A stretch of 10,692 nucleotides of DNA, from NCBI GenBank assembly GCA_021783175.1, contig JAJXUF010000108.1, forward strand, positions 1 to 10,692, in the 5' to 3' direction. The notes under the pieces were generated by a model. The model ran no database searches. It worked only from the letters and a program-made list of their open reading frames with translations, and was not told the origin of the DNA. Made by a program: the position numbers and the translations under genes. Source of the stretch: Pseudomonadota bacterium (GTDB lineage Bacteria; Pseudomonadota; Gammaproteobacteria; Acidiferrobacterales; UBA6901). Shown in pieces: positions 1 to 10,287 of the stretch (position 1 is the first letter of the stretch; each line of letters begins with the position of its first letter).

Positions 1-2564
1 TCAAGGCCGCTCTGTTTTGGTACGCCCGCAAGTCGCCGATCCAGAACAAACAAACCCAGCTTTTCCTTTTCTTCCTATTCGCCCTGGCACTCAATAATCT
101 GGCGGAAATATTCACCTTTTACGACAGCGCCAGAGGGCTCGTTCCAACTGTGCCGCTGGAACTGTACTTCGTCTCAGCGATATGTGCGCTCGCCATGTTT
201 GTTCATCTTTTCGTCTCCATTGCGCTCAATTTCGCGGTATCGAAACACCGTCCTTTGGTCCTTTCGTTACTCTACGGAAGCGCGGCTACTCTTCTTTACC
301 TGCTCCTGTTCACGCCGTTGCTAGTTGCCGGATTCGCCCCCCTCGGCCATGCGTATTATCGTATTCCTGGACCGCTCTACCCGTTATTCGAAATTTTCGC
401 AATCACTTGCTTTATAGTGGTGTTCGCAGTCCTGTTGCATGCGATCGCCATCGAGCCGGTCCAGCAAAAAAAGAGTCGCATGAAGATCATGCTCGTCGGC
501 ATCACGCCGATGATGGTTCTGGTTGTCACCAATATTTCACTGATGCACTTTGGCGTGACATGGCTAAGCACGCCAATCACTTTACCCATTACCATTACCT
601 TCCTTTTGTTAGTTACCACCTACGCTATTCACCAGTACCGCGTATTTGATATTCAGTTTTATCTTCCTTGGTCGCGCCTGCGCCGGCGTAAAACCGCATT
701 TTATGACCGCGTTCGCGCGATGATTACTGAGATTGCAGATCTCGGCTCGGCTGGGGACATTATGAATCGTTTGTCTGCGACGCTCGGATGTTCCGTGGCG
801 CTGATCAGCCGCGATCGATCGATTGTCGCTGCGGGGGCTGGCGCCACGGAGATGACGGGTATGCCGAAAGCCATCCTGCAGGACTTCAGCCATATCGTAG
901 TTGCCAACGAGATTGCCGAAACCCGTCCGGATCTTTATCGCGCGATGAAGGAACATCGAATTGCGGCAGTTGTGCCTTTCTACCCGCACAGCGTTCACGC
1001 ATCCGGATGGCTTCTGCTGGGCGATTCGTTTGATGACCAAGTCTATTCCAGTCTGGATTTCCGATTTGTCGAGCAGCTTTTCGACAAAATGGCCGACTTG
1101 TTTCTGGATAAGCTCCTTACCATGCGTACCCACCTGGCGGACGCTTCGCGCAGTATTCGCGATCTGCAGGGCCAGCGGCAGGAACTAACAGCCAATCTCC
1201 TGGAGGTACAGAAGCAAAATGAACTGCTGCACAAGCAAAATGAACTCTTGCGCAGGGAGCGGCCAATAGACAGCCTGAGTTCATTGTCCATCGATGGATC
1301 CGGAGCACTTGGGCACGAGGAACGTTTTGCATCGACCATTACTTTGCTAGGACGCGACAAGGAAGTGCTGAAACGCCTGCGGCTTCGGTTTTCCCAAGTC
1401 CAAAGCTATGTCGGCATCAGTTCGGCAGGATTCCGCAGTCATCCCCTGCCGGAAGTTTTGGTTGTTTTCATTGACAATCAGGACGTCAAGACGCATGCCA
1501 AATTGTGCGAATTTCTTGTGTCCCAGCGCGAAACAATCGCGGCACTTTTATACGGACCGGCCGCTGCCGACTTCATTCGCACAAATCGGAGCGTGTTGCT
1601 TGGTGGGATCATCGAGGCCCTTCCGCCCGATTTTACAGATGAATTGCTGGTGCGACGCATTCGCACCCTTGCGGCAATGCGCCAAGACGTTTGCGCGATC
1701 TCCGAAAGTGACCAGCCCCTCATCGGCCAAAGCCCGGTTTTCCTCGAGCAGATGGCGGCTGCGCATCGCCTCGCTGGGTTCAGGGAACCCCTATTGCTGC
1801 AGACAACCGATTCAGCTCAGGCTCTGGCGCTTGCCACACACATCCACAAAGTGAGCCGCAGGCCGGGTCAGGTACGAATCTGGCAGGCAAAGCCGACATC
1901 CGAAAACAGCTCACAGCAGACGGAATTTGGCCCGGATACGATGGCTGGATTGGCTACCGCTGCCAAGGACGCGCACGACGGCACCCTTATTATCCTGGGT
2001 ATATGCGAGCTTTCGACGCACTTGCGCGAGCAGGTGCTGACTACGGCAGAAAACGCCAACAACGTGCGCCTTATTGCGATTGCGGCGGGAAATGCAATGC
2101 AGCCGCAAGATGCGATTGCCCAAAGCTTCGCGCCCTTCGTGATCAATATGCCGCATTTGCGCGAAAGAAAAAGCGATGTCGCCGCGCTGGTCAATTACTT
2201 TACGTTACAGTTCAATCTTCAGAGCGGCGCACAGCGCTATTTGAATCAGTCAGAAATTGATGATCTTCTGGAGTCCGCCTATCCAGAAAATGTCGCAACC
2301 CTGAAACAGTCGGTTTTCATCCGGCTTACCCCGAAGCTCGAGCAACCATCCGAATCGGCGGGCGCGGCTATTGCCATTGAAACCGAGGTAGGCGACAAGA
2401 CACTGGACGATTACGTGGCCGAACTGGAGGCGCGTGTCATCACGCAGACGTTGGAACGTTGCGGCGGCAACAAGTCGAAAGCCGCCCGCCTGCTGGGGCT
2501 GCGCCCCAACACGTTGCACTACAAGCTTGAGCGTTACGGGATCGCGCCAGGAAAGACCAGCTAG
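1..2564 (+). CDS. Membrane-anchored NtrC-like regulator with degenerate AAA+ domain and Fis-type HTH (5' end missing)
   Basis: The frame is open from base 3, with no start codon before a GTG at 150. The 49 preceding codons encode another hydrophobic helix, so the gene almost certainly begins left of the window. About six membrane helices are visible (roughly 57-122, 165-233, 255-332, 381-452, 483-551, 570-629), like a histidine kinase 7TM sensor region. A GAF-like domain follows (about 702-1118), then a coiled coil with repeated QNELL heptads (1125-1265). Next is a receiver-like domain (1335-1685) without phospho-acceptor Asp or the KP lysine. The AAA+ domain of sigma-54 activators (1725-2330) is recognisable from LRERKSDV (2157-2180) and a YPENVATL version of the YPGNVREL block. 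The protein ends with a Fis-type HTH (2469-2540, NKSKAARLLGLRPNTLHYKL). Walker A is gone, Walker B DE has become LG, GAFTGA is absent and the sensor II Arg is Ala. I infer a membrane-tethered DNA-binding protein that does not hydrolyse ATP. Domain order is well supported; the target genes are unknown. Confidence 0.8.
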   Translation, partial: KAALFWYARKSPIQNKQTQLFLFFLFALALNNLAEIFTFYDSARGLVPTVPLELYFVSAICALAMFVHLFVSIALNFAVSKHRPLVLSLLYGSAATLLYLLLFTPLLVAGFAPLGHAYYRIPGPLYPLFEIFAITCFIVVFAVLLHAIAIEPVQQKKSRMKIMLVGITPMMVLVVTNISLMHFGVTWLSTPITLPITITFLLLVTTYAIHQYRVFDIQFYLPWSRLRRRKTAFYDRVRAMITEIADLGSAGDIMNRLSATLGCSVALISRDRSIVAAGAGATEMTGMPKAILQDFSHIVVANEIAETRPDLYRAMKEHRIAAVVPFYPHSVHASGWLLLGDSFDDQVYSSLDFRFVEQLFDKMADLFLDKLLTMRTHLADASRSIRDLQGQRQELTANLLEVQKQNELLHKQNELLRRERPIDSLSSLSIDGSGALGHEERFASTITLLGRDKEVLKRLRLRFSQVQSYVGISSAGFRSHPLPEVLVVFIDNQDVKTHAKLCEFLVSQRETIAALLYGPAAADFIRTNRSVLLGGIIEALPPDFTDELLVRRIRTLAAMRQDVCAISESDQPLIGQSPVFLEQMAAAHRLAGFREPLLLQTTDSAQALALATHIHKVSRRPGQVRIWQAKPTSENSSQQTEFGPDTMAGLATAAKDAHDGTLIILGICELSTHLREQVLTTAENANNVRLIAIAAGNAMQPQDAIAQSFAPFVINMPHLRERKSDVAALVNYFTLQFNLQSGAQRYLNQSEIDDLLESAYPENVATLKQSVFIRLTPKLEQPSESAGAAIAIETEVGDKTLDDYVAELEARVITQTLERCGGNKSKAARLLGLRPNTLHYKLERYGIAPGKTS

Positions 2565-2611: not shown

Positions 2612-2968
2612 TTAGTCCTTGGCCCGGACTCTGTTGTGGGTGCCGGATCTTTGCGCCTGATCCACTTCCGGATGGGTAAGATAAGCGAAAATGGCACCGG
2701 CGATCGCGGCTGCTAGCGTGTCTCCCCATGCCTGCACCTGCGGCCGGAAACCGACATCGCACCAGAACATGTTGCCTTCGTCGAAACGACCGCAGTGGAA
2801 AAATACACCTTCGGGCAACAGCGACAAAGCGGTCTCGACGTTCTGCGTATAGGGTCGCGATCCTTCAGTGCCATTTGGAAATTCAAGGTGGCACTCGATT
2901 AGCATGTCGGCTTTCTGGCCGGCACGGCGAAGCTCTTTGAGAATGACTTCACGATGCTCGCAATTCAT
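2612..2968 (-). CDS. Unrecognised 118-residue cytosolic protein
   Basis: I do not recognise this family. The start at 2968 is well supported: a Shine-Dalgarno stretch GGGAGGGGAG (2980-2971) lies just upstream. A sigma-54-like promoter at 3005-3020 would give a leader of about 26 nt. The protein has no signal peptide and no clear membrane segment; only a short Ala-rich stretch (about residues 84-97) is mildly hydrophobic. Four cysteines (C3, C26, C59, C70) are spread out, without a CXXC pair. The middle is rich in aromatic and acidic residues (FFHCGRFDEGNMFWCDVGF), which suggests a small folded domain. The tail after residue 100 is polar and basic. It converges on the membrane regulator gene with a gap of 47 bp and stands apart from the ygjP gene behind it, so it is probably transcribed alone. 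Function unknown. Confidence 0.72.
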   Translation of the reverse strand: MNCEHREVILKELRRAGQKADMLIECHLEFPNGTEGSRPYTQNVETALSLLPEGVFFHCGRFDEGNMFWCDVGFRPQVQAWGDTLAAAIAGAIFAYLTHPEVDQAQRSGTHNRVRAKD

Positions 2969-3296
2969 TTCTCCCCTCCCTAGTTAATGGTCCTTTGCTT
3001 TACAAGCAAGATCCACGCCATCCCTGGCATGTACGCAGTATGCCGGCAAATATCCCCGCGCAAGCAACCGTTAATCGGTACCCACCCAGAAGAAACGGCG
3101 TCGCCGGTTGCATCAAGTGTAGTGCCTGCCGGCGCCAATTGTGGCATATCTGTATTAGTAACCAATAATGTACCGACCCATGCCGCGATCCTTGTCGTTC
3201 CCGGCGCCAGCAAGGACCCGGCAAAACTCCTACGCAACTTTAGGACTGCAGCTTGTCCGTCCACAGCCGGTGTCGCGCGCCAATGACAAACCGCAG
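2969..3296. other. Intergenic region between two minus-strand genes
   Basis: Open frames exist on both strands (2987-3286 plus, 2980-3264 minus), but neither has a ribosome binding site or a recognisable protein, so I treat the stretch as non-coding. It holds the sigma-54-like element at 3005-3020. It also has a local AT-rich island with a 13-nt imperfect palindrome ATTAGTAACCAAT (3154-3166), about 135 bp upstream of the -24 element, a distance at which enhancer-binding proteins often bind. The 9-mer CCGGCGCCA occurs twice (3129-3137, 3201-3209). No convincing terminator for ygjP was found. Confidence 0.5.
3005..3020 (-). promoter_or_regulatory. Candidate sigma-54 (-24/-12) promoter for the 118-residue protein gene
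   Basis: On the minus strand the sequence reads TGGCGTGGATCTTGCT. It matches the consensus TGGCAC-N5-TTGCW at TGGC, the spacing and TTGCT, with two mismatches (GT for AC). The expected transcription start near 2994 leaves a leader of about 26 nt that contains the strong ribosome binding site. The position is good; the two mismatches keep this tentative. Confidence 0.42.
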
Positions 3297-4031
3297 CTAA
3301 AAGGCGGCGTTTAATCCGAAACTCTTCAGTTCCAGACGCAGTCGCGGATACTCCGGTACAACCCGTTCGACCTCTCTCCAGAACCGCTGGGAATGGTTGG
3401 CATGCAACAGGTGGCAGAGTTCGTGCACAACAACGTAGTCCAGCACTTCCGCCGACGCCTGCATGAGTCGCCAGTTGATGGTGATCGTACCGCGTGCGGA
3501 ACAGCTACCCCAGCGGGTCTTCTGACCGCGAATGCTGAGACGTCGCGGTGCACGTCCCACGAGAGGCGCGAAATGCAGAACCCGCCCGGAAACATGTTCG
3601 CGCGCGGCCTGCCGATACCAGCCCACCACCAGGGCCGAGACCTGTCCCGAAGTCGGAGCCGAGACCACGAGATTCTGGCCAAGTCGGATAGCAGCCGGCC
3701 TGATCTTTTCGCCCAGATGCTGACGCAAAACCAATATATCGCCCAGCAACGGCAGCTGCGAGCCGTCGCCCAAATGGGCAACCGACTTTTGTTGTGCGCT
3801 ATTCACCAGCGCACGCCGCTTACCCGCTATCCAGGCCCAATGATGTGCAAGAAACGTGTGTATATCGCTGCGCCGCGCTCGCATCGGCGCCATGACTCTG
3901 ACTACACCGCCGGCCAACACTTGAACACAGAGGGTAGCGCGGCGCGGACTCAGGCGCAAAGCATAGGGCAAAGTAACGCCGTCAACGGAAATTTCGTCAT
4001 GCCGCAACACTGGGTCCAAAGCCCGCGACAT
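3297..4031 (-). CDS. ygjP: YgjP-like (DUF45/SprT-type) zinc metallopeptidase domain protein
   Basis: This 244-residue protein belongs to the YgjP-like metallopeptidase family (formerly DUF45). The C-terminal half carries the family block TRWGSCS (172-178), then INWRLMQA (185-192), then the zinc-binding HELCH (203-207), with a third ligand His in NHSQRFW (H213). These are the zincin HEXXH signature and its downstream ligand. The N-terminal part (residues 1-130) is the beta-rich lead domain of the family. There is no signal peptide or membrane helix, so it is probably cytoplasmic. The substrate is not established for the family. The ATG at 4031 is separated by a single base from the rubredoxin stop (TGA-C-ATG), and the start has only a weak ribosome binding site of its own, so translation is probably coupled to the rubredoxin gene. 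Confidence 0.9.
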   Translation of the reverse strand: MSRALDPVLRHDEISVDGVTLPYALRLSPRRATLCVQVLAGGVVRVMAPMRARRSDIHTFLAHHWAWIAGKRRALVNSAQQKSVAHLGDGSQLPLLGDILVLRQHLGEKIRPAAIRLGQNLVVSAPTSGQVSALVVGWYRQAAREHVSGRVLHFAPLVGRAPRRLSIRGQKTRWGSCSARGTITINWRLMQASAEVLDYVVVHELCHLLHANHSQRFWREVERVVPEYPRLRLELKSFGLNAAF

Positions 4032-4032
4032 G

Positions 4033-4197
4033 TCAGATCTCGATCATTTCGAATTCATCCCTGGAGGCTCCGCAGTCGGGACATTTCCAAGTTTCAGGAA
4101 AATCCTTCCACAATGTTCCCGGCTCGATGCCTTGCTCGGGAATGCCTTGTTCCTCGTCGTATATAAAACCGCATATCACGCACATGTACGCCTTCAT
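4033..4197 (-). CDS. rubA: Rubredoxin
   Basis: This is a 54-residue classical rubredoxin. Its single iron is held by four cysteines in two knuckles: C6-V-I-C9-G and C39-P-D-C42-G. The aromatic core residues are present (Y4, Y13, W30, F33, W38), as is the acidic surface typical of these electron carriers. Length and sequence match the single-domain type. The frame stays open upstream to 4365, but the ATG at 4197 is the right start: GAGGAAGG lies just before it and the protein begins exactly at the conserved [10 protein letters not shown]. It is the first gene of a two-gene unit with ygjP and is divergent from hemH. It probably serves as a soluble one-electron carrier; the redox partners are not in this window. 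Confidence 0.97.
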
Positions 4198-4251
4198 GCC
4201 TTCCTCGAATTCAACCCAACGCCAATTGCCTCCGCCGCTCGACGCAGCGCG

Positions 4252-4288
4252 TTTTCGCATGCGGCAGGCGATTTTCGCATGATTTCGC
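4252..4288. repeat. Phased direct repeat in the rubredoxin/hemH divergent promoter region
   Basis: TTTTCGCATG occurs twice, at 4252-4261 and 4272-4281, exactly 20 bp apart. The core TTTCGC occurs a third time at 4283-4288, a further 10 bp on. The copies thus lie on one face of the helix, immediately upstream of the proposed hemH -35 element. This looks like an operator or activator site, but the binding protein is unknown. Confidence 0.45.
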
Positions 4289-4293
4289 GGCGG

Positions 4294-4322
4294 GTGAAAA
4301 GCGGCCGCGCGCCGCGTACAAT
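4294..4322 (+). promoter_or_regulatory. Candidate sigma-70-type promoter of the hemH-thiD-thiE-hemL operon
   Basis: GTGAAA (4294-4299) and TACAAT (4317-4322) are separated by 17 bp and match the -35 and -10 consensus at 4/6 and 5/6 positions. The expected transcript start near 4329 lies after an in-frame ATG at 4321 and before the ATG at 4360, which favours 4360 as the hemH start. The spacer is very GC-rich, which lowers confidence. Confidence 0.42.
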
Positions 4323-4359
4323 GCCAGCCAGCTACCAGGCCACACAGCACCCTCCACCC

Positions 4360-5334
4360 ATGCAAAGCAAAACCGCCGTCGTCCTTTTCAATCTTGGTGG
4401 GCCGGATTCGCTCAATTCCGTCGAGCCGTTCCTGTTCAATCTCTTTTCCGATCCGGATATTTTCAAATTACCGCTGGCTTTTCTCACCCAACGCCTATTC
4501 GCGCGCGCCGTCGCGCGCCGTCGCGCGCCTGAGGCCCGAGTGGGTTATGCCGCCATCGGCGGCAAATCTCCGCTGCTGGAAAATACCACCAGACAGGCCC
4601 GTGCGCTGCAGCATTCACTCCAGGCGCACGGCGAATTTGAAGTGTTCATCTGCATGCGCTACTGGAATCCGCTGACCGCTGAAGTCGTCAGTCAGCTCAA
4701 GAAACGGGGGCATACGCGCGTTGTGCTCTTCCCCCTGTATCCCCAATACTCGATCACCACAACGGGAAGTTCGTACAATGAATTCATGCGCCAATGCGAG
4801 CGCCAGCATTATCGACCTGCGGTCACATTGATTCGCCAATGGTACGACGCGCCAGACTACCAGCAGGCAATTCTCGACAGCATTGCAGCGCGAGTCGCAG
4901 CATTCCCCATTGCCGACCCAGCGCACATCACGTTGCTTTTCTCGGCCCACGGCTTGCCGCAAAAAGTGGTGGATCGGGGCGATCCGTATGAGGAACAGAT
5001 TCGCGCTACCTTCGATGCGCTGCGCGCTCGGCTCGGCTGGCCGGACATTATGCTCTGTTACCAGAGTCGAGTCGGTCCGCTCAAATGGCTTCAACCCTAT
5101 ACAGACCAGGTTATCCGCAGCAAGGGGGCGACAGGAACCAAGCAGATGCTCGTCTACCCCATCGCCTTTGTGTCTGACCATACCGAAACGCTTTATGAGC
5201 TAGGCATTCTCTACAGCAAGCTCGCCGCACAATGCGGTATCGAGCACTACCAGGTGGTGCCGGCCCTCAATGATCATCCGCTATTGATCCGCGCCGTCGA
5301 AAAGCTCATTCTTGCCGAGGCACGAAACCTATGA
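4360..5334 (+). CDS. hemH: Ferrochelatase
   Basis: This 324-residue enzyme inserts ferrous iron into protoporphyrin IX, the last step of protoheme synthesis. It has the N-terminal block [11 protein letters not shown], the FPLYPQYS region, the catalytic His in FSAHGLP (H197) and the catalytic Glu in DHTETLYEL (E276). Length is normal for a bacterial single-domain enzyme. The frame is open upstream to 4030. The ATG at 4360 was chosen because it begins the conserved core directly and lies after the proposed promoter; an ATG at 4321 would add 13 poorly conserved residues. There is no strong ribosome binding site. The N-terminal sequence ([23 protein letters not shown] written in conserved blocks) recalls alphaproteobacterial ferrochelatases more than the usual betaproteobacterial NLGTPDAPT type. 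It overlaps thiD by four bases (ATGA). Confidence 0.95.
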
Positions 5335-6140
5335 CTACTCCCAATCTCCCGGTCGTTCTGGTTTTTGCCGGCAACGATCCAACCGGTGGAGCCGGCATCC
5401 AGGCCGATATTCAATCCCTGGCAAGCCTTGGCTGCCATCCTGCCCCGGTGGTTACGGCGATTACCGTTCAAGACACAATCGGCGTCAAACAGTTCGTTTC
5501 GGTCGATGCCGAACTGGTTATTGCCCAGGCACGCGCCGTGCTTGAAGACATGCCCGTGGCCGCTTTCAAGACAGGCATGCTCGGCAGTATCGCCAATCTG
5601 ACCGCGATCGCCGGTATCCTCGAGGATTATCCCGAAATCCCGCTCATCGTCGACCCGGTGCTGGCTTCGGGACAAGGCGATGAGCTTTCCGAGGAGCCAA
5701 TCGAGGACGCGTTGCGGGCACTGCTCATCCCGCAAGCGACGCTGATAACGCCCAACAGCATGGAAGCCCGGCGCCTGGCACCGGATGCGGACACACTTGA
5801 TGCCTGCGCGCAGGAACTTCTTTCCGTGGGCTGCCAGTTCGTGCTTGTTACCGGAACGCACGAGAACACGCCTCAGGTGGTCAACCGCCTGTACGGTAAC
5901 CGGCGTTTGCTGGAAACATTTTCCTGGGAGCGTTTGCCGGAAAGCTATCACGGTTCCGGCTGCACCTTGGCTGCAGCCTGCGCCGCCACGTTTGCCCAGG
6001 GATTTGATCCGGTGGACGCCGTTGCCGAGGCGCAAGACTACGCATGGAACACGCTCAAGCACGGCCAGCGCCTGGGTATGGGCCAGCACCTGCCCGACCG
6101 CCTTTACTGGGCACGATCCGGCGACGAAAATGGCGACTGA
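5331..6140 (+). CDS. thiD: Hydroxymethylpyrimidine / phosphomethylpyrimidine kinase
   Basis: This 269-residue kinase of the ribokinase fold phosphorylates hydroxymethylpyrimidine and then its monophosphate, giving the pyrimidine half of thiamine. Evidence is the N-terminal FAGNDPTGGAGIQADI (canonical SGSDSSGGAGIQADL), the FKTGMLG and VDPVLASGQG blocks, and the C-terminal anion-hole motif HGSGCTLAAA with the conserved Cys (C211). The ATG at 5331 overlaps the hemH stop in an ATGA junction, which implies translational coupling. The 3' end overlaps the thiE start by 11 bp. The N-terminal Ser-to-Asn/Thr changes in the first motif are seen in other proteobacterial members. No TPP riboswitch is visible ahead of the operon, so any thiamine control is not obvious from the sequence. 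Confidence 0.95.
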   Translation: MTTPNLPVVLVFAGNDPTGGAGIQADIQSLASLGCHPAPVVTAITVQDTIGVKQFVSVDAELVIAQARAVLEDMPVAAFKTGMLGSIANLTAIAGILEDYPEIPLIVDPVLASGQGDELSEEPIEDALRALLIPQATLITPNSMEARRLAPDADTLDACAQELLSVGCQFVLVTGTHENTPQVVNRLYGNRRLLETFSWERLPESYHGSGCTLAAACAATFAQGFDPVDAVAEAQDYAWNTLKHGQRLGMGQHLPDRLYWARSGDENGD

Positions 6141-6813
6141 TCAGCGGCGCGAAACAATCTCGCCGGGTCGCGGGGCCGATGCCCGTCAGCGAGCGATATG
6201 CGGACTTTATGCGATCGCCGACAGTAGCTGTCTGCGAACGGCCACTTTCCTTGATGGTGTGGATGCCGCGCTGCGCGCCGGTGCGCGTGTTATTCAGTAC
6301 CGCGACAAGCAGGCGGACCCGGACGGACGCGAGCGCCTCGCACGTTCGCTGGTTGAGCTGTGCCGACGCTACACGGTACCATTGATCGTGAACGATGACG
6401 TGGATCTTGCCCGCCTGGTTGGTGCTGCCGGTGTCCACCTCGGCCGTGACGATCCTGGTCCCAGGGAGGCGCGAGCCATCCTTGGCAGCGAAGCGATCGT
6501 TGGCGTTTCCTGCTACAACGAATTCGAGCGCGCCGAGCGCGCGGCCGAAAGCGGCGCCGACTATATCGCCTTCGGCAGCATGTATCCGTCCCGCAGCAAG
6601 CCGGCGGCGGTACGCGCCAGCACCGATCTGCTGCGCCGTGCCAAAGCCAGACTAGGTGTCGCCGTGGTTGCGATCGGCGGGATTACCCCGGACAATAGCG
6701 CCGCCTTGATCGAGGCCGGCGCCGATGCCGTTGCCGTGATCGAAGGAGTTTTCGGACAGGCGGATATTTGCGCCGCGGCGAGCGCCTATGCGCGCTTGTT
6801 TGCCTGCCCGTAG
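6130..6813 (+). CDS. thiE: Thiamine-phosphate synthase
   Basis: This 227-residue TIM-barrel enzyme joins hydroxymethylpyrimidine pyrophosphate to hydroxyethylthiazole phosphate to make thiamine monophosphate. Diagnostic blocks are YAIAD (27-31), VIQYRDK (54-60), LIVNDD (85-90), GVHLGRDD (101-108), VGVSCYN (124-130), the pyrophosphate-binding loop [11 protein letters not shown] (148-158, where many enzymes have TXTK) and AIGGI (181-185). The ATG at 6130 lies inside the end of thiD (11 bp overlap), giving about 20 residues before the fold starts. This head is polar and weakly conserved, and no good ribosome binding site is visible, so translation is probably coupled to thiD. The product works directly downstream of ThiD, and the pair is a natural functional unit. 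Confidence 0.95.
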
Positions 6814-6838
6814 GAAAGTCGTAGTTGCGGAAACCGTC

Positions 6839-8140
6839 ATGACTAAAGCGTTCACATTCTCCAAATCCAGCGCGCTCTTCCAGCAGGCGCGTCACCGCAT
6901 TCCCGGCGGTGTCAATTCACCAGTTCGCGCCTTCCGGGGTGTGGGCGGAGATCCGGTATTTTTCGCGCGCGGCAGCGGCGCCTATTTGTGGGACGAAGAC
7001 GGTAATCGCTATGTCGATTATGTGGGTTCCTGGGGTCCCATGATCCTCGGTCATGCGCACCCGCACGTGGTTGAGGCCGTAAAAAAAGCCGCCGACGGGG
7101 GCCTGGGATTCGGGGCGCCAACCCGCAGCGAGACAGAGATGGCGGAACTTGTATGCTCTCTCGTACCGTCGATAGAAAAGATTCGCATGGTGAGTTCGGG
7201 TACCGAAGCGACCATGAGCGCAATCCGTCTGGCGCGCGGTTACACCGGCCGCGACAAGATCGTCAAGTTCGAGGGCTGCTATCATGGTCACTCCGACTCG
7301 CTGTTGGTGAAGGCGGGTTCCGGCGCCCTGACGCTTGGCATCCCCACCTCACCAGGCGTGCCGGCCGCGCTGGCCGCCATCACCCTCACTCTGGAATACA
7401 ACAACGCCGAACAGGTGCGCAGCGTCTTCGCGTCGCATGGCGCTGAAATCGCCTGCGTCATTGTCGAGCCTGTGGCCGGCAACATGAACTGCGTGCCGCC
7501 GGTGCCCGGCTTTCTCGAGGAATTGCGCAGGACCTGTGATGCCTACGGCGCGTTGCTGATCTTCGATGAAGTGATGACTGGATTCCGAGTGGCGCTCGGC
7601 GGAGCCCAGGCGCTGTACGGTATCAAGCCGGATCTGACGACGCTCGGCAAGGTGATTGGCGGAGGCCTGCCCGTCGGTGCGTTTGGCGGGCGGGCAGACA
7701 TCATGGACCGGATCGCGCCCGACGGACCGGTCTATCAGGCCGGGACGCTTTCCGGCAACCCATTGGCGATGGCCGCCGGGTTGGCGACGCTGCGGGCGGT
7801 TGCAGCGCCGGGATTTCACGAGGCCCTCACCGCCAAGACACGAGCGCTTACCACGGGACTGCAGGCGGCCGCCCGCACCGCAGGCATCCCCTTGCTGGCG
7901 CAGAGTGTCGGCGGCATGTTCGGGGTGTTCTTTACGGCTGAGGGACAAGTTGCGCGCTTTTCCCAGGTGATGACCTGCGATGTAGAGCGCTTCCGGCATT
8001 TCTACCACGGGATGCTTGGCGCTGGCGTCTATCTCGCCCCGTCAGCCTTCGAGGCCGGTTTTGTGTCGGCGGCGCATAGCGAGGCAGATATCGCGCAGAC
8101 CGTTGACGCCGCCGAGCGCGTATTTCGCACCCTCAAATAA
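6839..8140 (+). CDS. hemL: Glutamate-1-semialdehyde 2,1-aminomutase
   Basis: This 433-residue PLP enzyme of the class III aminotransferase fold converts glutamate-1-semialdehyde to 5-aminolevulinate, the C5-pathway precursor of all tetrapyrroles. Evidence is the N-terminal [11 protein letters not shown], the PLP phosphate region [15 protein letters not shown], the [10 protein letters not shown] block, [10 protein letters not shown], the PLP-binding lysine in [18 protein letters not shown] (K271) and [13 protein letters not shown]. Length is normal. The ATG at 6839 is used because it is preceded by GCGGAAA and gives the standard N-terminus; the frame itself is open to an ATG at 6788 inside thiE. 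The gap to thiE is 25 bp, so it is the last gene of the hemH-thiD-thiE-hemL operon, and a strong hairpin follows four bases after the stop. Confidence 0.97.
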
Positions 8141-8225: not shown

Positions 8226-8462
8226 TCAGCTTGAAAGTATGTATTCGTCGCCGTACTTTACCGCTGCCACATGTGGACGCAGCGTCTCATCGCTCAGTGC
8301 GATATCCACCCCTAAAATTGCAGTGACATCTTCGTGATCACGCACCCCTGGCAGTTCTTCCCGCAGGTAGCCGTAGTGGGTCTCGTTCATGTAGACCAGA
8401 TTTGGGCGTACCCCGTGGTTTTGTTCATAGCTGCTTACAAGGCTGACTATAAAGCTAAGCAT
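8226..8462 (-). CDS. Unrecognised 78-residue protein with sigma-54-type promoter
   Basis: I do not recognise this family with certainty. The ATG at 8462 is chosen over an in-frame ATG at 8528 because GAGGAG lies eight bases before it, and the upstream part (Arg/Pro-rich) looks like untranslated leader. The N-terminus MLSFIVSLVSSYEQNHG is amphipathic rather than a signal peptide. The body has a distinctive, well-ordered composition (RPNLVYMNETHYGYLREEL, then VTAILGVDIALSDE) that reads like a compact alpha/beta domain, and it ends VAAVKYGDEYILSS. No cysteines and no transmembrane helix are seen. It is convergent with hemL and shares its hairpin as terminator. A full sigma-54 promoter match lies about 80 nt upstream, so expression may be conditional. 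Confidence 0.75.
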   Translation of the reverse strand: MLSFIVSLVSSYEQNHGVRPNLVYMNETHYGYLREELPGVRDHEDVTAILGVDIALSDETLRPHVAAVKYGDEYILSS

Positions 8463-8551
8463 GGTTGCCGCTCCTCTGCGTCTAGGCCCGGGACGGATGC
8501 AATTCTGTTTCCTGCCAGGGCGCGTCACGTAACTTCCTTGCTACAGAGAGG

Positions 8552-8567
8552 AGCAAGAGGTGTGCCA
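8552..8567 (-). promoter_or_regulatory. Sigma-54 (-24/-12) promoter
   Basis: On the minus strand the sequence is TGGCACACCTCTTGCT, a complete match to TGGCAC-N5-TTGCW with correct spacing of the GG and GC dinucleotides. It points to the 78-residue gene, with a predicted start near 8542 and a leader of about 80 nt. A chance full match in a window of this size on either strand is unlikely (of the order of one in a hundred). Confidence 0.72.
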
Positions 8568-8598
8568 GAATCAGAAAATTTCGTAACGTATTGATTCT
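8567..8598. repeat. Inverted repeat directly upstream of the sigma-54 promoter
   Basis: AGAATCA (8567-8573) and TGATTCT (8592-8598) form a 7-bp inverted repeat with 18 bp between them. The inner arm abuts the -24 element. The interior is AT-rich. It may be a regulator site, but the arms are short and may be coincidental. Confidence 0.3.
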
Positions 8599-8755
8599 AA
8601 GGGAAAGTGGATGTGGGGGCGGGATGCCCTGCCCGGATTAGGAAGCTGCGTATCGGGTCAGTGGGTGACGCCAATGGGCAGATCAAAAGACCCAAGGACG
8701 GCAGCTGCGGCATGACGCCATCGACGACGCAACTGCCTTGCGCGCCAGCCGACTG

Positions 8756-8787
8756 TTACCGGCCCCGTGCCAGCACGGAGCCGGTAA
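8756..8787 (-). terminator. Large hairpin downstream of cytochrome c4
   Basis: TTACCGGCCCCGTGC (8756-8770) pairs with GCACGGAGCCGGTAA (8773-8787), 14 of 15 pairs, with a two-base loop that can open to four. It begins 13 bases past the cytochrome c4 stop. No U-run follows on either strand, so it is either a tail-less terminator or an mRNA 3'-end stabiliser. Confidence 0.55.
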
Positions 8788-8800
8788 TGACAAAGACGGG

Positions 8801-9409
8801 CTAGTGCAAACCCTGCATGTAGCCAGCGACAGCCTTGATCTGCGCCAGTGACATGCGGAAAGCAATGGGCCCCATGACGTTCCCATCGTTGGTTCTGTCA
8901 CCATTTTTGAACGCCACAAGCTGCTTTTCCAGATATGCGGCATGCTGACCAGCTATGCGCGGGAAGCGCGGCGGAATGCCGTGGCCAGCTGGACCATGAC
9001 AGCTCATGCAGGCGGGGATGCCAAACTTCCAATCGCCGCCCCGGTAAAGCTGTTCGCCGATTTTGACGGTATCGGCATCCGCATTATCGACACCGGCAGA
9101 CATCTTCTGACTGGAGAAATAGGCGGCGACATCTTCCATGTCCTGAGTCGAAAGGGACGCGGCCATGCCAGTCATGATCGGATCTTTACGTTTGCCGGAC
9201 TTGAAGTCGGAAAGCTGTTTGACGATGTATCCGGCGCTCTGGCCCGCGAGTTTCGGCCAAAGCGGGTTCACGCTGTTGCCATCGGCTCCGTGGCATGCCT
9301 GGCAGGCAGCGGATTTCACCTTACCAGCCGCCATATTACCGTCAGCATGAGCCAGGCTCATGGTGCCGGCGATCATCAAGCTTAGAAAAAGTGCTGCACG
9401 TCTTTGCAT
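8801..9409 (-). CDS. Di-heme cytochrome c4
   Basis: This 202-residue periplasmic cytochrome has two c-type heme sites, CQACH (36-40) and CMSCH (134-138), in two tandem homologous domains. Each is followed by candidate axial methionines (M79/M82 and M179/M186). The signal peptide is clear: basic MQRR, a hydrophobic core and a likely cleavage after AHA (residue 22) before DGN. The sequence KLAGQSAGYIVKQLSDFKSGKR and its second-domain counterpart RIAGQHAAYLEKQLVAFKNGDR, quoted here only as parallel blocks, are typical of cytochrome c4. It passes electrons toward terminal oxidases. The ATG at 9409 is supported by GAGGGGG just upstream and the intact signal peptide; the frame continues open to 9598. 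It is divergent from engB. ResB/CcsA cytochrome c assembly genes, often next to c4 in this group, are absent here. Confidence 0.96.
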   Translation of the reverse strand: MQRRAALFLSLMIAGTMSLAHADGNMAAGKVKSAACQACHGADGNSVNPLWPKLAGQSAGYIVKQLSDFKSGKRKDPIMTGMAASLSTQDMEDVAAYFSSQKMSAGVDNADADTVKIGEQLYRGGDWKFGIPACMSCHGPAGHGIPPRFPRIAGQHAAYLEKQLVAFKNGDRTNDGNVMGPIAFRMSLAQIKAVAGYMQGLH

Positions 9410-9618
9410 ATCACCCCCTCGTAAATCCGGCGCGTTTCCGCAATACCGGGCTGGTATCTTCTCCGGCGATGTTACACTGTCTGTCGCGCACCGGCTGCCC
9501 TGCGTAAACCCGGCAAGCTTCCACGTATCGGGCGTCGCCGTGGGCGGGTCTGGCAAAATGGGGTAACCGGAACCGATTAGCGTCGCCTTATATACCAAGA
9601 GCCTGTCTTGAGGTCAAT

Positions 9619-10287
9619 TTGCAAGAGTCTGCCAGCCAAGTTTTTTTTCCATCGGTGGTTTTCCTCCAGAGCTCCAGCAGCCCCGATAACCTGCCGCCGG
9701 ACCGCGGTGTCGAAGTGGCGTTTGCCGGCCGATCCAATGCCGGGAAGTCGAGCACTCTCAACGCAATTACCGGGCGCCGTGCACTGGCCCGCACCAGCAA
9801 GACCCCGGGCCGGACGCGCCTAATCAATTTTTTTGCCCTCGACCCATTGCATCGCTTGGTCGATCTGCCCGGCTATGGTTATGCCAAGGTATCGGAATCG
9901 GTCAAAGAGAGCTGGCAAGAGTCCATGGCCACCTTTCTCGAAAGCCGGCAGTGTCTGCGTGGATTGATACTAGTTCTCGATATCCGTCTGGCACTGACAC
10001 CACTGGACAGGCAAATGTTGGTGTGGTGCCACCGCTCGCGCATGCCGGTGCATCTACTTGCTAACAAATGCGACAAATTGAGCCGTGCCGCTGCCGGGCG
10101 CGCGCTCGATGCGCTTCGCAACGAAGTTACTGCGATTGGCATGAGCGCCTCAGCGCAGCTTTTCTCAGCGACCTCCCGTCAGGGTGTGGACGAGGCACGA
10201 GCGCTCATACTCGAGTGGCTGGAGCTGAGCGTTGGACACAAAAAAAACCCCGGAAACAAGGGGAGAGAGTCCGGGGTTCGTAAGTAA
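9619..10287 (+). CDS. engB: Ribosome biogenesis GTP-binding protein EngB (YsxC/YihA)
   Basis: This 222-residue TrmE-Era-EngA-EngB-Septin-type GTPase assists assembly of the large ribosomal subunit. G1 is GRSNAGKSS (37-45), G2 lies in SKTPGRT (60-66), G3 is DLPGYGYAK (82-90), G4 is NKCD (149-152) and G5 is the FSATSRQG block (182-189). No ATG is available before G1. The TTG at 9619 is the best start, with GAGGT about five bases upstream, and it yields the usual lead FFPSVVF...LPPDRGVEVAF. The C-terminal tail (GHKKNPGNKGRESGVRK) is polar and basic, and is encoded by DNA that also forms the opposite-strand terminator at 10240-10278. The 209 bp between cytochrome c4 and engB must hold both promoters; no clear one was identified, though TATATA at 9589-9594 could be an engB -10. 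Confidence 0.93.
   Translation: MQESASQVFFPSVVFLQSSSSPDNLPPDRGVEVAFAGRSNAGKSSTLNAITGRRALARTSKTPGRTRLINFFALDPLHRLVDLPGYGYAKVSESVKESWQESMATFLESRQCLRGLILVLDIRLALTPLDRQMLVWCHRSRMPVHLLANKCDKLSRAAAGRALDALRNEVTAIGMSASAQLFSATSRQGVDEARALILEWLELSVGHKKNPGNKGRESGVRK
10240..10278 (-). terminator. Rho-independent terminator of polA, inside the 3' end of engB
   Basis: On the minus strand the 9-bp stem AACCCCGGA / TCCGGGGTT (arms at 10270-10278 and 10246-10254, loop of 15 nt) is followed directly by eight T residues (10247-10240). This is a typical intrinsic terminator for transcripts coming from polA. It lies within the last codons of engB, and about 200 nt past the polA stop. Confidence 0.8.

Follow-up and report, generated by a model that had tools for sequence, protein, structure and literature searches.

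What does a bacterial regulator do when it is built like a sigma-54 activator, lacks the motifs that define such an activator and is placed in the membrane? The question is raised by a DNA stretch of 10,692 nucleotides (the window; contig JAJXUF010000108.1 of assembly GCA_021783175.1) from a gammaproteobacterium of the Acidiferrobacterales (UBA6901), which begins with the gene of such a protein. Our answer, to which we assign a probability of about 0.6, is that the protein is a sigma-54-independent, membrane-held transcription factor of NtrC-type ancestry that binds the palindrome TCAAANNTTTGA and controls the gene of an acyl-joining enzyme.

Domain layout and motif losses

The protein runs from seven membrane helices through a GAF-like domain, a coiled coil, a receiver-like domain and an AAA+-like part to a Fis-type helix-turn-helix (HTH). 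The first-pass annotation of the window had called this combination of membrane helices, AAA+-like part and Fis HTH unusual, and the order is confirmed. The features are, in window coordinates:

3..2564, + strand: whole regulator gene; its 5' end lies beyond the window, 18 codons being missing by comparison with homologue P0001
3..638, + strand: seven-helix membrane part (AlphaFold2 helices; helix 1 is cut by the window edge), predicted N-terminus outside and C-terminus inside
675..1046, + strand: GAF-like cytoplasmic domain (AlphaFold2 model; the fold match is weak)
1050..1259, + strand: long helix, probably a dimerising coiled coil (AlphaFold2, residues 368-437; the per-residue model confidence, pLDDT, is low in mid-helix)
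1335..1697, + strand: receiver-like domain (AlphaFold2; structural alignment with FleQ 8p53)
1716..2099, + strand: AAA+ core without ATPase motifs (AlphaFold2, structural matches and alignment)
1803..1826, + strand: site of the lost Walker A motif (TTDSAQAL; alignment)
1980..2000, + strand: site of Walker B (GTLIILG, with LG in place of DE; alignment)
2100..2348, + strand: lid region with a conserved LRERxxD and a family-specific YFTLQFN stretch
2295..2297, + strand: Ala in place of the sensor II Arg (alignment)
2403..2546, + strand: Fis-type HTH at the C-terminus (HTH_8, E = 3.3e-17, above cut-off)

The membrane part has seven hydropathy peaks and positive-inside charges. The loop charges are as expected if the N-terminus lies outside and the C-terminus inside, and a fusion protein at locus L085, described below, agrees. 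HisKA_7TM (PF16927) is listed as a precomputed annotation in many homologues; the window protein has no match, and the proteins of L018 and L088 stay below the cut-off of 28.6 bits, at 25.2 and 24.7.

The AlphaFold2 model and structural matches place an activator-type AAA+ fold in the window protein, and its motifs are missing throughout the relatives. A homologue search in which 7,995 candidates were scored returned 193 proteins at E ≤ 0.001. The best 120 of these 193 are 625-880 amino acids long (115 have at least 800), and none of them carries an intact Walker A or GAFTGA motif in its AAA+ part: a pattern scan for GAFTGA found 0 of 120, and the lone Walker-A-like pattern lies inside the membrane part of P0069. 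Motifs were counted in an alignment of 114 homologues with ZraR as the column reference. The P-loop Lys occurs in none of them (the column holds Ala in 73, Cys in 13, and others), nor does the Walker B DE (DN in 27, DD in 16, TG in 12, and others). GAFTGA is likewise absent from all 114, its columns being mostly gaps that reflect a deleted loop, and the sensor II column holds Arg in two. In 96 of 114 proteins, strand 3 of the receiver-like domain is followed by an acidic residue (Asp 53, Glu 43; these positions are model-derived and approximate). The domain does not have the Asp, Lys and Thr/Ser set of a phosphorylatable receiver, since the Lys position is without Lys in 114 of 114.

Losses shared by all 114 homologues mark a conserved family and not a decayed copy. 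Judged by sequence, the ATPase is dead in the whole family and has not decayed recently, in line with the earlier prediction for the window protein. The same function-defining motifs exclude the protein, as far as can be predicted, from the sigma-54 activators, though it is descended from them. The PrsR-type model TIGR02915 matches 49 of 49 members, weakly and far under its cut-off. A class-wide draw found the family in 2 of 369 genomes, one being the centre genome itself.

Probable repeated loss of the receiver-AAA module

Conservation is uneven along the protein. Mean pairwise identity is highest in the HTH (0.76) and second highest in the GAF-like domain (0.62), followed by the coil (0.52), lid (0.46), receiver-like domain (0.43), membrane part (0.41) and AAA core (0.32); an 18-residue linker has the lowest value (0.23).

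Some members consist of 465-553 amino acids and lack the receiver and AAA parts wholly. A scan of GTDB genomes gave 29 loci, several of which encode such a short form, with 469-540 amino acids and a membrane-GAF match that leads straight to the HTH. Short forms occur at L016 (two), L018, L020-L022, L024, L084 and L086. A search with seven of them listed 40 new proteins, 39 of which are 501-553 amino acids long; HTH_8 is a precomputed annotation in 38 of these 39, P0159 being the exception. In a tree of the membrane-GAF region built from 94 rows (47 short, 47 long) and 391 columns, short and long forms interleave. Parsimony counts 18 changes between them, at least 15 of which are forced by well-supported branches, against 31.8 in shuffles. 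In one of the short rows, L088, a stop interrupts the frame ahead of the HTH. Repeated loss of the receiver-AAA module is the simplest reading of this mixed tree; domain exchange between genes would look alike. The AAA part thus appears dispensable, and the predicted working core is membrane part, GAF-like domain and HTH.

Other architectures exist. In genome G416, L085 (916 amino acids, 8353-11103, - strand) has a Peripla_BP_6 domain (E = 3.9e-50) before the seven helices, the GAF-like part and the Fis HTH. A periplasmic binding protein (Venus flytrap) fused at this end is as expected of a putative outside-in receptor. The layout is that of a class C G-protein-coupled receptor (GPCR), yet with a DNA-binding domain at the end. 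L087 of the same genome (612 amino acids, 8392-10230, - strand) has a Response_reg domain (E = 1.7e-10) where others have the membrane part; a degenerate receiver, a dead AAA and the HTH come next. This soluble relative, headed by a true receiver, shares 33% identity with the window protein over 403 columns. At L089 (about 1290-1545, - strand, genome G406), an HTH-only frame of about 119 codons from stop to stop occupies the hemH/fadE place of the full regulator and is perhaps a remnant.

Neighbouring genes and a candidate operator

Genes were labelled in 40 stretches. The family gene is present in 33 of them, several of which share a genome (G009, G010, G015 and G416); the window was left out of the counts, as were L019, L026-L029 and L089, where the family gene is absent or fragmentary. 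A gene for an OleA/PpyS-type ketosynthase directly adjoins the family gene in 17 of the 33 (it is broken in L015), and three others (L020-L022) have a gene for a FeeM-type N-acyl amino acid synthase (PF21926, above cut-off). In nine stretches (L001, L007, L015, L016, L024, L080, L081, L083 and L086) fadE diverges from the same intergenic stretch, with fadA, fadB and fadD behind it in most. Ten of the 33 have none of ketosynthase, FeeM and fadE.

The best PDB match of the ketosynthase is OleA of Xanthomonas (E = 1.3e-38), and the protein falls below the cut-off of the best NCBIfam model. Its Cys and His are present in 15 of 15 sequences and its Asn in 14, L018 having none by pattern. The OleA-type Glu (EP-x-TA) is present in all 15, 11 by strict pattern and four with a changed neighbour. 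Within the order of genome G001, 17 of 57 genomes have the family gene (E 1e-30 threshold) and nine have a ketosynthase orthologue (E ≤ 1e-45). All nine fall among the 17, one of them (G016) with a broken and unlinked copy.

The palindrome TCAAANNTTTGA was found by reading ten fadE intergenic stretches, where it or a near form occurs in five (L001, L007, L015, L016 and L080), and was then scanned over all fetched loci. For the ketosynthase and FeeM genes, the scan covered 350 bases ahead of each of 18 start codons (192 at L020), leaving out the two broken pieces in L015 and the gene at the contig start of L018. The site occurs with at most one mismatch in 15 of the 18 and exactly in five; 300 dinucleotide shuffles gave means of 0.31 (maximum 4) and 0.007, respectively. 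Loci that had played no part in the discovery have it in 11 of 14 cases, where 0.27 were expected and 300 shuffles gave at most 3. Within the 18 loci, site density is 131 times as high in the upstream DNA (18 sites in 6.1 kb) as in the other 312 kb (7 sites). The best sites start 98-216 bases ahead of the start codon in most loci, and in the marine group a site near -125 is often joined by another near -307. The palindrome is mostly missing from loci that have neither ketosynthase nor FeeM. At L084, two sites precede the family gene by 436 and 521 bp, and at L086 one lies 375 bp behind it. The ketosynthase loci and the FeeM loci both carry the palindrome, and the family gene is the sole part that they share. 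We infer that the family protein binds it.

A simple consensus scan for sigma-54 promoter-like (-24/-12) sites found none in the 18 upstream stretches. At the FeeM loci a sigma-70-like -35 element, identified by eye, lies inside the palindrome, which allows both a repressor and an activator that contacts the -35 region.

Further features accompany these loci. Two family genes in tandem flank the ketosynthase at L016 (8738-13282) and L024 (9992-13561); in both, a palindrome lies ahead of the ketosynthase, and L016 has one ahead of the first regulator as well. At L100 (genome G411), two palindromes at 3019 and 3251, 232 bases apart, precede the gene of a secreted protein with Peptidase_S74, a possible second target. 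A small conserved gene of about 116-178 amino acids stands tail to tail with the regulator in the window (2612-2968, - strand) and in L001, L002, L003, L007, L018, L027 and L080. No Pfam match was found for it in the window, L001 or L003. The order hemH, thiD, thiE, hemL beside the regulator (window 4030-8140) is kept in many relatives, which indicates that this genomic place is old.

Mechanism, alternatives and known systems

In the mechanism that we propose, a signal would be received at the seven helices or the GAF-like domain. The long coiled coil would join the two subunits of a membrane-held dimer to paired Fis-type HTHs, and the signal would shift the seating of the HTH pair on the palindrome and so alter transcription of the ketosynthase or FeeM gene. 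Another target may be fadE, next to whose beta-oxidation operon the palindrome also lies in one lineage group. What remains of the NtrC-type ancestor, the receiver-like and AAA+ parts, would neither hydrolyse ATP nor contact sigma-54; this remnant may be no more than a spacer or an additional contact, which would account for its frequent loss. Because all neighbour genes handle acyl chains, the sensed compound is probably lipid-like. We tentatively suggest, as a possibility well short of even odds, that a GPCR-shaped seven-helix receptor senses the membrane-soluble product of the enzyme that it controls, like LuxR/LuxI, from within the membrane. Such a circuit would use parts borrowed from a sigma-54 activator, and its enzyme would be a head-to-head ketosynthase or an N-acyl amino acid synthase.

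Several observations weigh against the proposal that the family protein controls the acyl-joining gene through this palindrome. The loci are not independent, the marine ones being interrelated and likewise the three FeeM loci, and L002, L025 and L088 have no site at one mismatch (each has one at two). Across 12 genomes, the 14-base form at one mismatch gives 65 sites versus 18 for a reversed control. Most of the extra sites inspected sit within genes or far from them and few are promoter-like, which suggests that the regulon is probably small and local. Thirteen of the 33 stretches have neither ketosynthase nor FeeM and hence no assigned target. L087 retains receiver and AAA without the membrane part, and L089 retains only the HTH. 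The window itself has no upstream DNA, and its neighbour and operator are known from relatives alone; its downstream order (small gene, YgjP, hemH, thi genes, hemL) is that of L002 and L003, in both of which neighbour and operator are present.

The palindrome could instead be read by another regulator, such as host Fis or a fatty-acid repressor, with the family protein a mere neighbour. The Fis core site is A/T-rich and the palindrome resembles it, and in five of the ten fadE intergenic stretches that were read (L024, L081, L083, L086 and L089) the palindrome was not seen. We nevertheless consider this unlikely: the palindrome accompanies the family gene into FeeM loci that otherwise share nothing, the ketosynthase orthologues in the order of G001 were found only in genomes with the family gene (9/9), and the HTH far exceeds every other domain in conservation, as for a fixed target. 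It is more doubtful still that the protein is a membrane-held precursor from which a protease releases the HTH part as a soluble factor. The membrane tether and the long linker helix would suit such a scheme, and a gene for an Rce1-like (CAAX-type) membrane protease lies close behind the regulator in six of the 33 stretches (L005, L008, L009, L011, L012 and L013). All six belong to the marine group, however, and both the GAF-like domain and the coil, which lie between the membrane part and the HTH, are strongly conserved, unlike a throw-away tether.

Two further alternatives concern the remnant. FleQ and VpsR work with cyclic di-GMP (c-di-GMP) and at sigma-70 promoters, and the dead receiver-AAA might likewise be a nucleotide sensor, for example of c-di-GMP, that serves the long forms as their chief input. 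The low identity of the AAA core and the repeated loss of the module make this improbable. The first-pass annotation had offered a negative partner of true enhancer-binding proteins, which would mix with them and block sigma-54 activation in a dominant-negative way. A search of 19 host genomes detected RpoN in 18, and these genomes have separate frames resembling enhancer-binding proteins; host genome G010, which may be incomplete, has no RpoN match. The suggestion is not supported, and we regard it as very improbable: short forms have no AAA to mix with and sit at the same type of locus with the same operator, and the consensus scan showed no sigma-54 promoter between operator and start in any of the 18 stretches.

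Transmembrane transcription regulators such as ToxR, CadC and TcpP are a described and widespread class, 56% of them single-pass in a survey (PMC10269533). As read from its domains, the window protein belongs to this class, in that a single chain joins its DNA-binding domain to membrane helices and there is no separate soluble regulator. The earlier view of a membrane-held one-component regulator therefore stands as a prediction; "a new kind" was too strong and is better put as a new variant within the class. Unlike its mostly single-pass members, the family has seven helices, a GAF-like domain and an NtrC-derived Fis-type HTH. The main text of the survey mentions neither GAF nor HTH_8 nor sigma, and the matches to "Fis" seen in it are parts of other words. 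Our searches of the open-licence literature turned up neither the present family nor any seven-helix regulator that carries a Fis HTH of the activator type.

With the NtrC-type activators NtrX, ZraR and PspF, the family shares the order and the folds of receiver, AAA+ and Fis HTH. It differs in lacking Walker A, the Walker B DE, GAFTGA and the sensor II Arg, in the membrane part in front, and in a presumed target without a sigma-54 promoter. FleQ (8p53) and VpsR (7v2b) are the best structural match over receiver plus AAA; both are soluble, and motif loss goes further in the family, where the entire module is often absent. PrsK and PrsR of PEP-CTERM systems are a kinase and a separate regulator, unlike this single chain without a kinase, and any kinship of the membrane part with PrsK is conjecture. 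The pairing of an OleA/PpyS-type ketosynthase with a one-component regulator recalls the photopyrone synthase PpyS, a head-to-head ketosynthase that makes a quorum-sensing signal and has the same essential Glu as OleA (PMC4578411), and the LuxR-type PluR, which senses that signal. PluR is soluble and belongs to a different family from the present regulator, which has seven membrane helices.

If correct, our reading would show how a sigma-54 activator can become a membrane receptor that works without ATP or sigma-54. Its intermediate stages would still be on view, in long forms whose AAA part is dead, short forms that have dropped it, one form that carries a binding protein on the outside, and one soluble form headed by a true receiver. 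Seven-helix receptor, acyl-condensing enzyme and defined operator together make a pairing that can be put to the test. The system would allow a direct test of how membrane-held transcription factors read DNA and of whether the products of OleA/PpyS-type or FeeM-type enzymes act as signals.
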